A program made the translations under genes and the position numbers. The notes under the pieces were generated by a model. It was not told where the DNA came from. It saw only the letters and a program-made list of their open reading frames with translations, and ran no database searches. Positions 24,792 to 29,990 of a stretch of 64,000 bases of DNA are shown here, in pieces. How positions within the stretch are numbered: the first letter of the stretch is position 1; the number at the start of each line of letters is the position of its first letter. The stretch is from positions 186,001 through 250,000 of the forward strand of contig JAHBSJ010000002.1 of NCBI GenBank assembly GCA_019639155.1, written 5' to 3'. This stretch comes from Acidobacteriota bacterium. GTDB lineage: Bacteria > Acidobacteriota > Blastocatellia > Pyrinomonadales > Pyrinomonadaceae.

Positions 24792-26105
24792 CTATTTGGA
24801 TCTTTCAGCCCAGATCTGCACCAGATTGACCAGCATCTCAGTCGATTTTTCCAGGCCGCGGCGTGAATTCCATTCGAGCTTGCCGTGGAAATTATGTCCG
24901 CCTGTGAACAGGTTTGGCGTCGGCAGACCGCGGGCGGTCAGCCGCGATCCGTCAGTCCCGCCGCGGATCGGCTTCATTTTGGGTTTCAGTCCGGCACGAG
25001 TAGTAGCTTCCTTGGCATATTCGACGAGTTTCGGATGATCCTTGAGGATCTCCTTCATATTCAAATATCCCAACACACTCGAATACTCGACGCGGACATT
25101 GGGGAACTTGATGCGGACAGCCTCGGCCATTTGTCTGAGCATGTTCTCTTTTGCCTCTACACCGCTCAGGTCGAAATCGCGGATCAGAACCTTGACGGTC
25201 GATGTCTCGACATCGAGATTCGCAATGTATGGATGGACAAACCCGACCCGCTCTGATGTGGTTTCAGGCAGCATATTCGGCGGAAATCGCGTAAGAAAAT
25301 CTGCTGCGGCGTATGCCGAATTGACCATGATCCCCTTTGCGTAGCCGGGATGCGTCGATTTGCCGTGGAATGTAAGCGTCGCGGTACGTGCCGACCAAGT
25401 TTCGTCCGAGATCTCGCCGAGTTCGCCGCCATCGACCGTATAGGCGTATTTCGCACCCCAGCCTTCGATGTCGAAAAGGTCCATCGGCCCGCCGACCTCT
25501 TCATCCGGTGTGAATGCTATGGCAATGTTGCCATGTTTGACCGACGGATTTTGCCGGAGAATGTCGATCATCGTCATTATCTCCGCAATGCCCGATTTGT
25601 CATCCGAACCTAGCAGCGTCGTGCCGTCCGCCGTGATAATGTCGTCGCCGATGAGGTCTTTCAATGCCGGATTTTGCTCGACCGTGATGATCTGCGTCGG
25701 GTCTTTTGGCAGAACGATATCGCCGCCCTGATAGTTTTTATGGATGATCGCGTTCACATTCGCACCGCTGACCGCCGGCGAAGTGTCCATGTGGGCGATG
25801 AACCCGATCGTCGGCACCTTTGTGTGATCAGGCAAATTCCCCGGCACCATTCCGTAAACAATGCCCTCGGCACTGATGCGAACATTCTGCACGCCGAGAG
25901 CCTTCAGCTCGCTCTCGAGCATCCTCGCCAACACGAGCTGCTTCTCCGTGCTCGGAAATTTACCGGCTTCCTCAGCCGACTGCGTGTCGATCTTCACATA
26001 CCGCAAAAACCGATCCATCGCGGATTCCGACGGAGCTTTCTGCTGCGCAGGAGCAACAGCTGCAAAAAAAGAAATCAATACGATCCCCGCAAATATTTTG
26101 TACAT
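24792..26105 (-). CDS. pepT: Peptidase T-like tripeptidase with signal peptide
   Basis: 437 residues of the M20B family, a dinuclear zinc aminotripeptidase. Zinc and catalytic residues are seen in FIAHMDTSP (His, Asp), GSDDKSG (Asp), FTPDEEVG (Glu-Glu), YTVDGGELGE and the C-terminal FTGGHNFHG. RGGTDGSRL is typical of PepT. Unlike the usual cytosolic enzyme it begins with a Sec signal peptide (IFAGIVLISFFAAVAPAQQ), so it probably acts in the periplasm or outside. A RAYT element lies immediately upstream. Confidence 0.94.
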   Translation of the reverse strand: MYKIFAGIVLISFFAAVAPAQQKAPSESAMDRFLRYVKIDTQSAEEAGKFPSTEKQLVLARMLESELKALGVQNVRISAEGIVYGMVPGNLPDHTKVPTIGFIAHMDTSPAVSGANVNAIIHKNYQGGDIVLPKDPTQIITVEQNPALKDLIGDDIITADGTTLLGSDDKSGIAEIMTMIDILRQNPSVKHGNIAIAFTPDEEVGGPMDLFDIEGWGAKYAYTVDGGELGEISDETWSARTATLTFHGKSTHPGYAKGIMVNSAYAAADFLTRFPPNMLPETTSERVGFVHPYIANLDVETSTVKVLIRDFDLSGVEAKENMLRQMAEAVRIKFPNVRVEYSSVLGYLNMKEILKDHPKLVEYAKEATTRAGLKPKMKPIRGGTDGSRLTARGLPTPNLFTGGHNFHGKLEWNSRRGLEKSTEMLVNLVQIWAERSK

Positions 26106-26162
26106 AATTGTTCAATTAGTAACTGTATAATCTGAATCATACGCCGTCATAAGCCATCGACT

Positions 26163-26261
26163 GTCGCCAACGGCGACTGACCTATAAAGCCCAAGGTTAA
26201 GGCCGTTTCGGCCGCAACCCTGGGGATCACACCCAATTATACCCCCGTCGCTGAAAGCGAC
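26163..26261. repeat. Left inverted hairpin arm of the RAYT element
   Basis: It contains hairpins at 26163-26177, 26195-26219 and 26247-26261, separated by TATAAAGCC and an A/T-rich spacer. The order is inverted relative to the right arm. It begins 58 bp upstream of the pepT start codon, so it may carry or affect a promoter. Confidence 0.8.
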
Positions 26262-26266
26262 GAATA

Positions 26267-26710
26267 TCAATCCCAACAATATCGCTCGTCTATCTCCACC
26301 TCATACCGACGGCACAACGAGCGAAACTCATCCTGAAACGTCTGCCTCTTGTGGTGCTCCTTCTGATCGCGAATATACTTCGAAACGACGTCAACCAGTG
26401 ATTGCCCGACCGAAAAAGCTCCGTAGCCCCGCTGCCAATAGAACTTTCGGACGCCGTTCTCTTTCATCCATTTTGATGTTTCACGTTTGATGGTTCCGAT
26501 CAGCTTTGTGAGATCGCATTTTCCGATTGAGATAAGAATATGAATGTGATCGCCATCGCCTCCTGCGGTCAACATCTTTCCGCCGTTGTTTGTTATGATG
26601 CCGCTAATGTAGCCGTACATTTTTGGTTCCATCTCGGCGGGTATCAGACGAACCCGATCCTTGGTTGACCATACGACGTGAACTAGGATCTTGACCAATG
26701 ATTGCGGCAT
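26267..26710 (-). CDS. REP-associated tyrosine transposase (Y1/IS200-like, RAYT)
   Basis: 147 residues from the ATG at 26710 (MPQSLVKILVHVVWSTKDR, the usual start of this family). The HUH metal motif is GDHIHILIS (His55, His57) and the catalytic Tyr is Tyr112 in SKYIRDQKEHH. The sequence is complete and catalytically intact by eye. Y1-type RAYT proteins nick and join single-stranded REP hairpins, and this copy is flanked on both sides by such hairpins. It sits inside the kynurenine array on the same strand as the enzymes. Confidence 0.92.
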   Translation of the reverse strand: MPQSLVKILVHVVWSTKDRVRLIPAEMEPKMYGYISGIITNNGGKMLTAGGDGDHIHILISIGKCDLTKLIGTIKRETSKWMKENGVRKFYWQRGYGAFSVGQSLVDVVSKYIRDQKEHHKRQTFQDEFRSLCRRYEVEIDERYCWD

Positions 26711-26721
26711 CGGAAATGTTC

Positions 26722-26821
26722 GTCGCATTCAGCGACGGGATCGGGGGTTTATCCACGTCCTAGGGTTGCGGCCGAAACGGCCTTAACCCCTAGGCTTTAT
26801 ACGTTTGTCGCCGTTGGCGAC
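26722..26821. repeat. Right inverted hairpin arm of the RAYT element
   Basis: Hairpins at 26722-26736, 26764-26788 and 26807-26821 mirror the left arm with small differences that keep base pairing (for example CATTC versus TGAAA in the loop region of the inner hairpin). The outermost hairpin ends 8 bp from the dehydrogenase stop codon. Confidence 0.8.
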
Positions 26822-26829
26822 AACTACAA

Positions 26830-28347
26830 TTACAATTTCACGCAAACATTCTTTTCTTCCGTAAAGAACCGTAGAGCTTCGAAGCCGCCTTCGCGGCCGA
26901 TGCCGCTGTCTTTTACGCCGCCAAATGGTGTGCGGAGGTCGCGGAGCATCCAGCAGTTTACCCAGACGATGCCGGATTCGAGTTTAGCTGAGATGCGGTG
27001 AGCACGCGAAAGGTTTTCGGTCCAAACGGTCGCGGCGAGGCCGTAGCGGACACTGTTGGCATAGCCAAGAACTTCGTCTTCCGTGTCGAACGGCATTATT
27101 GTGACGACCGGGCCGAAGATCTCTTCTTGGTTCGTGCGGCAGTCGTGCGGCAGCCCCTCGACAACGGTCGGCTCGATGAAATGGCCTTTTTTGCATCGTT
27201 CCGAATCCACGCGGAACCCAGTCGCTATCGCTCCCGGTTCTGACTCGTCTCCGGGTCTTTGCGTCTCTGCGGTTACGGCTTTCCCGCCGCAAAGGATCGT
27301 GCCGCCTTCTTCTTTCGCGAGGTCGATATATGACAAGATCTTCTCGAAATGCTGTTTTGAGACGATCGCTCCGACGTCCGTAGCCGCGTCGGTTGGATCG
27401 CCAATTTTCAAAGCGGAAACACGTTCGACAAAATCCGTTTTGAACATTTCATAGATCGGGCGTTCGACGAAGATTCGCGAGCCGCAGAGACAGATCTCGC
27501 CTTGATTTGAGAACGATGAACGCACGGTCGTCGCCAGCATTTCTTCGTAATTGCAATCGGCGAAGATGATGTTCGGGTTCTTGCCGCCGAGTTCGAGCGA
27601 GAGCTTTTTGAACATCGGTGCGGCGGTGCGGGCGATCTCTTCGCCGGTCTTTGTGCCGCCGGTAAACGAAATTGCCTTGATGTCTTTGTGGCCAACGATC
27701 GCCGATCCGACCTTCGGACCGGTGCCGTGGACAATGTTTAGCACGCCCGCCGGCAAACCAGCTTCAATGCAAAGCTTTGAAAGCATAAATGCCGTCATCG
27801 GCGTGACTTCCGATGGCTTCGCGACGACGGTGCAGCCTGCGGCAATTGCCGGAGCGATCTTCCACGTAAACAAATAAAGCGGCAGATTCCACGGTGAAAT
27901 GCAGCCCGCGACGCCGAGCGGCTGCCGCAAAGTGTAATTGATCGCGTGGACGCTGTTCGCCCCAAACGTCTCGTGCGATTCGTTCGCGAGGTGCATCGCG
28001 GCGGTCGCATAGAATCTAAAATTCGCGGCAGCACGCGGGATATCGACCATTCTCGCAAGCGAAACCGGTTTGCCGTTGTCTTTCGATTCGGCCTGAGCAA
28101 GCGGTTCGAGGTCACGCTCGATCAAGGCGACGAGCCGCATCAATATCGCGAATCTTTCTTCCGGCGGAGTTGACGACCATGCAGGAAAAGCCGCCTTCGC
28201 CGCATCCGCCGCGAGGTTCACATCGCGATCATCCGAATCCGGTATCAGCGAATAAACATCGCCCGTCGCAGGTTCGAAGTTATCGAAATATTCGCCCGAA
28301 GCCGGAACAACCAGTTCCCCGTCGATGTAGTTTTCGATCATTTGCAT
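26830..28347 (-). CDS. Aldehyde dehydrogenase, probable 2-aminomuconate/2-hydroxymuconate semialdehyde dehydrogenase
   Basis: 505 residues of the ALDH superfamily. The NAD fold is seen in SFTGGTKTGE, the general-base Glu in LELGGKNPNIIF, and the catalytic Cys in NQGEICLCGSRIF. The C-terminal PFGGVKDSGIGREGG is typical of muconic semialdehyde dehydrogenases. The reaction oxidises 2-aminomuconate-6-semialdehyde, the ACMSD product, to 2-aminomuconate, which the RidA-family enzyme then deaminates. A stretch between CGGKAV and KKGHFIEPTV is longer than usual. It is encoded by a CGCAGAGACG-type repeat plus a hairpin element (27212-27275). Its start directly abuts the S58 peptidase stop. Confidence 0.92.
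   Translation of the reverse strand: MQMIENYIDGELVVPASGEYFDNFEPATGDVYSLIPDSDDRDVNLAADAAKAAFPAWSSTPPEERFAILMRLVALIERDLEPLAQAESKDNGKPVSLARMVDIPRAAANFRFYATAAMHLANESHETFGANSVHAINYTLRQPLGVAGCISPWNLPLYLFTWKIAPAIAAGCTVVAKPSEVTPMTAFMLSKLCIEAGLPAGVLNIVHGTGPKVGSAIVGHKDIKAISFTGGTKTGEEIARTAAPMFKKLSLELGGKNPNIIFADCNYEEMLATTVRSSFSNQGEICLCGSRIFVERPIYEMFKTDFVERVSALKIGDPTDAATDVGAIVSKQHFEKILSYIDLAKEEGGTILCGGKAVTAETQRPGDESEPGAIATGFRVDSERCKKGHFIEPTVVEGLPHDCRTNQEEIFGPVVTIMPFDTEDEVLGYANSVRYGLAATVWTENLSRAHRISAKLESGIVWVNCWMLRDLRTPFGGVKDSGIGREGGFEALRFFTEEKNVCVKL
27212..27275 (-). repeat. Hairpin element, copy 4, fused to a CGCAGAGACG-type repeat (in frame in the aldehyde dehydrogenase)
   Basis: Minus strand: ACCGCAGAGACGCAAAGACC precedes the shared flank GTCAGAACC, then GGGAGCGATAGCGACT and GGGTTC. 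The flank, GC-loop-GC core and closing GGTTC match copies 1-3, but the middle of the stem pairs poorly. The encoded peptide is ETQRPGDESEPGAIATGF, falling where other aldehyde dehydrogenases have a short loop. Confidence 0.72.
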
Positions 28348-29541
28348 CTATTTCGCCCGTCCGTATTTTTTCATAGCCTCGCGAACCTTTTCGATCGAGA
28401 TCGCTTCGACGGTGCGGCCGTTGCCGGTAACGGTCGTGGCTTTTAGCATTGAGTTGATTATCGCTTCTTCGGTTGCTTCGATGACGGCTTGGAAGAGCGG
28501 CGACATCGCGTCGTTGCCTAAAACTTTCAGATCGCGCAACGTTTGCGATGCGTCGATGCGGTTCGCGGTCGAGAACGCGATGGCGTAGTCGCCGCTGCCG
28601 TTGGTCATAGAGGCACCGGTTCGTCCCAATCCGATCATCGAACGCGAAGCAATGCGATTCAGTTGCCGATGATCAAGCGGCGCGTCCGTGGCGATGACGA
28701 TGATGATCGAACCGTCGGCGTTCAGAGTTCCGGCTTCAGCCGGGATAATTCCCTTCTGTGCCGGTTGCCGGCCAGAAACCACATTCTTCAAATAATATTG
28801 CCCAAGTTCTTCGCCGACCGGAACACCGTCGATCATCAGCACGCCGCCGAAGTTTGATTGGACGAGCACTCCGAGCGTGTAGCCGCCCAAGTTTGCGGGA
28901 AGTTTTCGCGAAGCGGTTCCGATCCCGCCTTTCCAGCCGAACGCGACCGTTCCGGTGCCGGCACCGACCGAACCTTCTTCGACAGGACCGGCGTTCGCGT
29001 TCTTGAGTGCGTTGAAAACGTCCTCGCGTGTGACGTGCCGCCCGCGGCCGTCGTTCAGGCCACCGTCGTTCGTTTCAGCGACGAGCGGATTTATCGAACG
29101 CACGTTTTCATTGCCCTTGAGGGCGAGCATGTGATCGATCAGGAAATCCGCAACGCGCGGCACCGACAGCGTTGACGTCAGCAAGATCGGCGTTTCGATC
29201 TCGCCGAGTTCATTTACCTGCGTCGAACCGGCGAGTTTTCCGAAACCATTGCCGACAAAAACGGCTCCGGGAACCTTTTCCTTAAACAGATTTCCGCTAT
29301 GCGGCACGACCGCCGTCACGCCGGTGCGGACATTTTCGCCGCGAATTATCGTCGTCTGTCCGACCGTCACACCCTCGACGTCCGTTATCGAATTTTGCTC
29401 GCCCGTGGGCAAAATTCCGATCCTGATCCCGAGCTCACGAGCCCTCGGACGATCATTTTTGAGCGTTTGGGCGGCTCCGCCGGTCGCGAATGCCGCGATC
29501 AGCCACGCTGCCAGCAAAAACTTGTGCGTTTCTGATCTCAT
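28348..29541 (-). CDS. P1 (S58/DmpA) family peptidase, exported
   Basis: About 397 residues from the ATG at 29541. A signal peptide (FLLAAWLIAAFATGGAAQ) is followed by an S58 domain of the L-aminopeptidase D-Ala-esterase/amidase type. The fold matures by self-cleavage before a nucleophilic Ser; the likely site is in MTNGSGDYAIAFST. Other family motifs are ITDVEGVTVGQTTI near the N-terminus and FGWKGGIGTASRKL. These enzymes release N-terminal residues from peptides. Its stop codon directly abuts the ATG of the semialdehyde dehydrogenase, so it may be the first gene of this part of the array. Confidence 0.9.
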   Translation of the reverse strand: MRSETHKFLLAAWLIAAFATGGAAQTLKNDRPRARELGIRIGILPTGEQNSITDVEGVTVGQTTIIRGENVRTGVTAVVPHSGNLFKEKVPGAVFVGNGFGKLAGSTQVNELGEIETPILLTSTLSVPRVADFLIDHMLALKGNENVRSINPLVAETNDGGLNDGRGRHVTREDVFNALKNANAGPVEEGSVGAGTGTVAFGWKGGIGTASRKLPANLGGYTLGVLVQSNFGGVLMIDGVPVGEELGQYYLKNVVSGRQPAQKGIIPAEAGTLNADGSIIIVIATDAPLDHRQLNRIASRSMIGLGRTGASMTNGSGDYAIAFSTANRIDASQTLRDLKVLGNDAMSPLFQAVIEATEEAIINSMLKATTVTGNGRTVEAISIEKVREAMKKYGRAK

Positions 29542-29685
29542 ATCACGCTTAAAACCCCAAATTCGCGACAAACAAAGGCTATTTCGAGTTTTCTGACCAT
29601 AATTTTCGGTCGCCGAGCAGGCTTAGTTGCCCCTCGATCCCCTTTGATCATGTTCCACGCCGCCATATTGGGGTTCCGACTCGTC

Positions 29686-29990
29686 TTCGTTGGCTTTCTG
29701 GTCGCTTTCGTTGGCTTCCTGGTCGCTTTCGTTGGCTTCCCCGCCGCTTTCGTTGGCTTCCCCGCCGCTTTCGTTGGCTTCCTGGTCGCTTTCGTTGGCT
29801 TCGTGGTCGCCTTAGTGAGCTTCCCACTCGCCTTCGTGAGTTTCCAACTCGTCTTCGTGAGCTTCAAAGTCGCCTTCGTGAGCTTCCAAGCCGCTTTCGT
29901 GAGCTTCCAAGTCGCTTTCGTGAGCTTCCAAGTCGCTTTCGTGAGCCTCCAAGCCGCTTTGGTGAGCTTCGAAGTTGCCTTCGTGAGCTC
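29686..29990. repeat. 21-bp minisatellite, about 14-15 units
   Basis: The 476-bp space between the S58 peptidase and dcd genes is largely filled by units of 21 bp. On the minus strand a typical unit is GAAGCTCACGAAAGCGACTTG (in parts), with a second type near 29686-29810 reading GAAGCCAACGAAAGCGACCAG. Open frames exist on both strands. Minus strand: a basic KLTKATW/KPTKATR series ending at 29538, and an acidic heptad ESDLEAH series broken by a stop near 29815. Plus strand 29644-30114: hydrophobic VGFLVAF/VSFQVAF. No frame has a good start with a ribosome site, so I do not call a gene. Confidence 0.85.

Follow-up and report, generated by a model that had tools for sequence, protein, structure and literature searches.

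The unit at positions 26161-26823 of the window (the whole stretch of 64,000 nucleotides that was analysed) consists of an arm, a Y1 transposase gene and a mirrored arm that is the inverse of the first, and is, with a probability that we would put at roughly 0.77, the gene-bearing (“master”) locus of a REPtron/REPIN-like system having three-hairpin, GTT-tagged repeats and an enzyme of subclass 1.2. The structure of the arms, their covariation, their sharp ends, their dispersal, the match between arm type and transposase clade, and the presence/absence differences between relatives are all supported by the data. What is new here is that a subclass-1.2-like group, at any rate in this Acidobacteriota family (Pyrinomonadaceae) and in a Persicobacter relative, is accompanied by cognate repeats; no published report of cognate repeats for subclass 1.2 was found in the literature searched, which largely excludes subscription journals.

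The unit in the window and its enzyme

The transposase gene (26267..26710, minus strand; 147 aa) matches Pfam PF01797 (Y1_Tnp) with E=1.4e-24 and carries the HUH motif and the catalytic Tyr of a TnpA-Y1/HUH transposase. While the mechanical open reading frame extends to 26728, the likely start codon is the one at 26710, because all of the orthologues open with MPQSLVK, and with this start the numbering of His55, His57 and Tyr112, by which the preliminary description had judged the enzyme intact, holds; the orthologues have these three residues as well. The arm 5' of the gene (26712..26823, minus strand; cmsearch R1 103.5 bits, fold z=-6.2, covariation) and the mirrored arm 3' of it (26161..26271, plus strand, that is, in inverse orientation; cmsearch R1 99.9 bits, fold z=-5.4, inverted repeats I1-I3) each comprise an outer, a middle and an inner hairpin and measure ~107 bp, in good agreement with the two inverted ~100-bp arms of three hairpins initially described. 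Three inverted-repeat pairs connect them: 26162-26196/26788-26822 (86% complementary), 26195-26224/26759-26788 (97%) and 26244-26267/26716-26739 (92%). As the inner hairpin of the 5' arm stops a few nucleotides ahead of the start codon, translation of the transposase gene could be affected by it.

Both neighbours lie on the same strand (minus) and keep their adjacency in relatives: an aldehyde dehydrogenase gene upstream (ALDH, 26830..28347; PF00171, E=5.9e-165) and an M20 peptidase gene downstream (pepT-like, 24792..26105; PF01546/PF07687), the unit being ~8 bp away from the ALDH stop (26830) and ~56 bp away from the pepT start (26105), much as first reported. Elsewhere in the window, at 29538-29950, short coding-like tandem repeats (KLTKA/FVGFLVA readings on the two strands) lie between an S58 peptidase gene and the gene next to it.

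The motifs of the enzyme (DHIH, YWQ (WQ) and YIRDQKEHH), together with its length, fit TnpA-Y1 subclass 1.2 when compared with Table 1 of PMC6006769, where this subclass is described as having ~148 aa, DH[IV]H, WQ, Y---Q--HH and a low copy number and as occurring mostly in Cyanobacteria and Bacteroidetes (Quentin et al. 2018); the enzyme can, hence, be called subclass 1.2-like, by motifs and length set against a published definition. It scores above the cut-off of the NCBIfam transpos_IS200 model and does not reach that of REP_Tyr_transpos (the RAYT model), so that it appears to resemble IS200 transposases more than classical RAYTs. Among solved structures, those of IS608 transposases come nearest to it (E=5e-5). 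The name “RAYT” given to it at first is, thus, apt insofar as this is a RAYT-like transposase with cognate repeats, and misleading insofar as its motifs are those of subclass 1.2, nearer to IS200.

The arms as maintained structures

The outer hairpin of the arm is GTCGCC-AAC-GGCGAC, the middle one is CCTAGGGGTTAAGGCCG...CGGCCGCAACCCTAGG and the inner one is CGTCGCTGAAtGCGACG. DNA folding z-scores of the arms range from -4.9 to -6.2, with none of the shuffles folding equally well. That differences between the arms compensate one another, as had been noticed for the window copy, is seen well above the level of shuffles: a set of 20 arms, drawn from seven species and with two gene-less host pairs among them, contains 29 double-changed cells versus 9.4 in shuffles, and 141 arms contain 369 versus 114, with 17 of the 24 base pairs altered on both sides, in an alignment that was fitted to the covariance model and, therefore, leans towards structure. 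In the 141 arms, the signal is lost as soon as the partner is shifted by 1-3 bases; the hairpins are, therefore, maintained as structures. Across 20 pairs from G006 and G030, which have the element alone in common, conservation ends ~5 nt beyond the outer hairpin (consensus end TTCTT, then GTCGCC) and the information content falls to nothing there, so that the unit is a discrete one. AAC follows the inner hairpin in most of the arms and, less sharply, the outer one, which is equivalent, on the opposite strand, to GTT as a tag on the 5' side of the hairpin foot; the GTAG (GTRG) tetranucleotide 5' of a hairpin is absent from the arm consensus, which has AAC/GTT at the foot instead. No Rfam family scored above its gathering threshold, so a known structured RNA was rejected, as were ordinary terminators or promoters, for which scans stayed at background level.

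Arm copies and their link to a transposase clade

A covariance-model search of the 3.2-Mb host genome (G000) returned ~19 convincing arms, 14 of which form seven inverted pairs of the same geometry (outer hairpin outward), one of these being the window unit; the ~17 further arms are mostly gene-less pairs, and uniqueness of the arms, which would have spoken against mobility, is not what was found. A gene-less head-to-head pair is ~215 bp long, and seven of the nine other host arm sites examined are clear of open reading frames of at least 150 codons, two overlapping one. In the genus set (41 genomes, including named Pyrinomonadaceae MAGs), 34 genomes bear arms, up to 78-81 per genome, and the arm model also finds matches, though weaker ones, across many further genera of the family. 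Gene-less pairs are far more numerous than gene-bearing units, and the pairs that were read showed no remnants of a gene. Inverted pairs that are mostly intergenic, many per genome and linked to a Y1 gene are what defines a REPIN population, and all of this is seen here. A different arrangement was encountered at G018 C19:20219-20653, where five arms stand in tandem in one orientation with a period of ~82 bp.

In a 37-row tree of Y1 homologues, a single clade (support 94/82) takes in all 24 rows, homologues from the genus, that have these arms on their flanks, mirrored and cognate in every case; more distant homologues fall outside it, and those inspected mostly have their own, different inverted repeats. 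In the host genome itself, four more Y1 homologues, 33-42% identical (C20:50597, C23:1950, C23:222253 and C21:210972), each lie near inverted repeats of differing sequence, and no gene-less copies of the arms of the C23:1950 paralogue were found in that genome. Genomes with a close homologue have a median of ~11 arms versus 1 in those without (p=1.5e-4, phylogeny ignored; p=1.0e-4 in genomes at least 90% complete, likewise uncorrected for relatedness). The exceptions are three genomes with 15-31 arms and no close full-length homologue detected, all of them incomplete bins, which might be explained by either bin incompleteness or loss.

It could be argued that the arms are structural regulators (of transcript ends or mRNA stability) spread by recombination, the transposase being just one of their neighbours, as most of the host arms examined lie between genes or at gene ends, one arm is 8 bp from the ALDH stop, and REPs elsewhere influence mRNA (PMC8266576). 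The presence of mirrored cognate arms at 24 of 24 clade gene rows and the tracking of arm numbers with gene presence, however, make us regard this as very improbable, even though secondary regulatory effects of the arms would be compatible with the arm-gene association.

An old gene-bearing copy and dispersing gene-less pairs

Orthologues of the window gene, 75-79% identical, sit in the same ALDH/pepT gap of five other species (G016, G018, G027, G028 and G039) and form one clade with the window copy (support 98/95), so a recent insertion at this site is ruled out and the gene copy is an old, long-kept occupant of the gap. Where measurable, dN/dS is 0.04-0.13 (dS to the window copy being saturated), and by these sequence comparisons the gene is under purifying selection. 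The ALDH and pepT trees are poorly resolved and disagree on the nearest relatives of G000, which made them unsuitable as a species tree and leaves strict vertical descent at the site beyond proof.

ALDH and pepT are also adjacent, with no unit between them, in at least ten other species (gaps of 41 bp and more), so that comparison with the empty site, as proposed in the preliminary description, reveals a site far from being occupied in all relatives. In G006, a member of another subclade occupies the gap at a different position, which is best read as an independent insertion, and across the genus the armed gene is found in 16 different neighbourhoods: over longer times, gene-bearing units have changed place, settling at many loci. 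By visual reading of the sequence, the gaps of G005, G035 and G009 seem to contain, instead of the transposase, a small gene resembling an antitoxin together with a toxin gene of PIN-domain-like type, and the ALDH/pepT gap, therefore, looks like an insertion hot spot. The G018 assembly has two ALDH/transposase/pepT loci (C36 and C49, the gene in the latter being frameshifted), which could be either a duplication or mixed strains.

On a shorter time scale, the dispersing form is the gene-less arm pair: a ~209-bp pair, 96% identical, is present at G018 C31:134335 and G039 C10:306566, these sites are non-orthologous, and each of them is without the pair in the other species, as would be expected if such pairs transpose. 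The orthologous gaps in this comparison are filled by other palindromic repeats, because of which the exact insertion points and any target duplication are unreadable. A different palindromic repeat of ~34 bp (e.g., L143 ~1645-1678 and 1818-1851) is abundant in G027, G028 and G039. The initial proposal of a mobile or recently mobile unit rather than a lone domesticated RAYT, therefore, survives as regards the cognate, dispersed repeats, and has to be given up as regards “recently mobile” for the gene-bearing copy, whose orthologues hold the same site.

A single-strand nuclease that the host has domesticated for some cellular task, with the arms left behind as mere relics, would likewise be under purifying selection and stay at one locus for long, and genomes such as G020 and G029 do keep distant homologues without having arms. 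We hold such domestication to be a marginal prospect, as the arms are intact and strongly covarying, and sister species carry arm pairs at different places, so that within the genus they are not just relics.

An ordinary IS200-like insertion sequence, with arm-gene-arm as the transposon and the gene-less pairs as its internal deletion derivatives, deserves somewhat more credit: the closest solved relatives are IS608 transposases, units are scattered over those 16 neighbourhoods, and two units are present in G018 and G039. Near-identical multiple copies of the gene-bearing element were, however, not encountered in the host genome (the other four genes being as divergent as stated above), the gene persists at one locus under the low dN/dS given, and the gene-less pairs outnumber the gene units by far while showing no gene remnants where read. 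Long ends that mirror one another, such as these arms, are not a trait of IS200-type elements, and we, therefore, consider the insertion sequence explanation unlikely.

Under the preferred master-locus reading, the enzyme would bind the arm hairpins when single-stranded, by analogy with IS200/IS605 and TnpA-REP enzymes (PMC8266576), cut beside the arms with the help of the short tag located 5' of the foot of the hairpin (GTT, or AAC when read on the opposite strand, with GTT as the putative guide), and join the DNA ends as those enzymes do. The gene-less head-to-head pairs would then be non-autonomous elements spread, i.e., moved or copied, by this enzyme.

Comparison with known systems

The published account of subclass 1.2 matches the enzyme and not its surroundings: no REP sequences, generally no terminal IS200 structures and no IS properties were ascribed to this subclass (PMC6006769), whereas here there are intact mirrored arms and dispersed gene-less copies in an Acidobacteriota host, the lack of REPs and of terminal secondary structures being a descriptive trait rather than a sequence criterion. 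With REPtrons and RAYT-REPIN systems (PMC8266576, PMC8049555, PMC3116915), the system shares a Y1 gene of low copy number with cognate hairpin repeats on either side, inverted pairs scattered through intergenic regions, a repeat number linked to gene presence, and long inheritance. It departs from them in its GTT-like rather than GTAG tag, in an arm of three hairpins (~107 bp) rather than a single REP of 20-50 nt, in a protein below the REP_Tyr_transpos model, and in the tight arm-gene-arm unit being found at many loci. TIRYTs/TIRtrons (Di Nocera et al. 2013, PMC3733652) likewise have long inverted repeats on both sides of a Y1 gene, some of these repeats recurring elsewhere, and are known from Acidobacteria as well, but those described belong to subclasses 2.1, 2.2 and 2.5 (PMC6006769), and their GGGGWSAS motif was not noticed here in the course of an unsystematic look. 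The system, thus, differs from REPtrons/REPINs and TIRYTs alike in enzyme subclass, tag and three-hairpin arm. With IS200/IS605 (IS608), the system has in common the HUH/Tyr fold as well as subterminal hairpins that have a 5' guide; unlike theirs, its ends are inverted copies of one another and comprise three hairpins, its copy number is low, and there is no tnpB in the unit.

Subclass 1.2 had been set apart as IS200-like while lacking both IS behaviour and REP partners, which left its role a blank; cognate, dispersed and strongly covarying arms constitute a candidate substrate for it that is directly testable. Given the described closeness of the enzymes of this subclass to true IS200 transposases, the system might, in addition, be used as an intermediate for understanding how insertion sequence enzymes became long-kept RAYT/REPIN systems.

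A counterpart from another phylum is found on the plasmid CP012861 of Persicobacter sp. JZB09 (Bacteroidota), which encodes a 43%-identical enzyme with mirrored three-hairpin arms, the inner hairpin of which, AACCCTGAAGGGGTT-GAAC, has the same loop and tag as the Acidobacteriota arm. We see slightly better than even chances for the generalization that, in two phyla or more (Acidobacteriota and Bacteroidota), Y1 transposases of subclass 1.2 generally come with their own three-hairpin, GTT-tagged arms and spread gene-less ~215-bp pairs, making up a separate REPIN-like lineage that is closer to IS200 than the known RAYTs are and whose master gene can relocate. Seven gene-less inverted pairs are present on the same plasmid, and in at least one of these Persicobacter copies the shared sequence runs on past the arms, which makes local duplication a contributor there as well.
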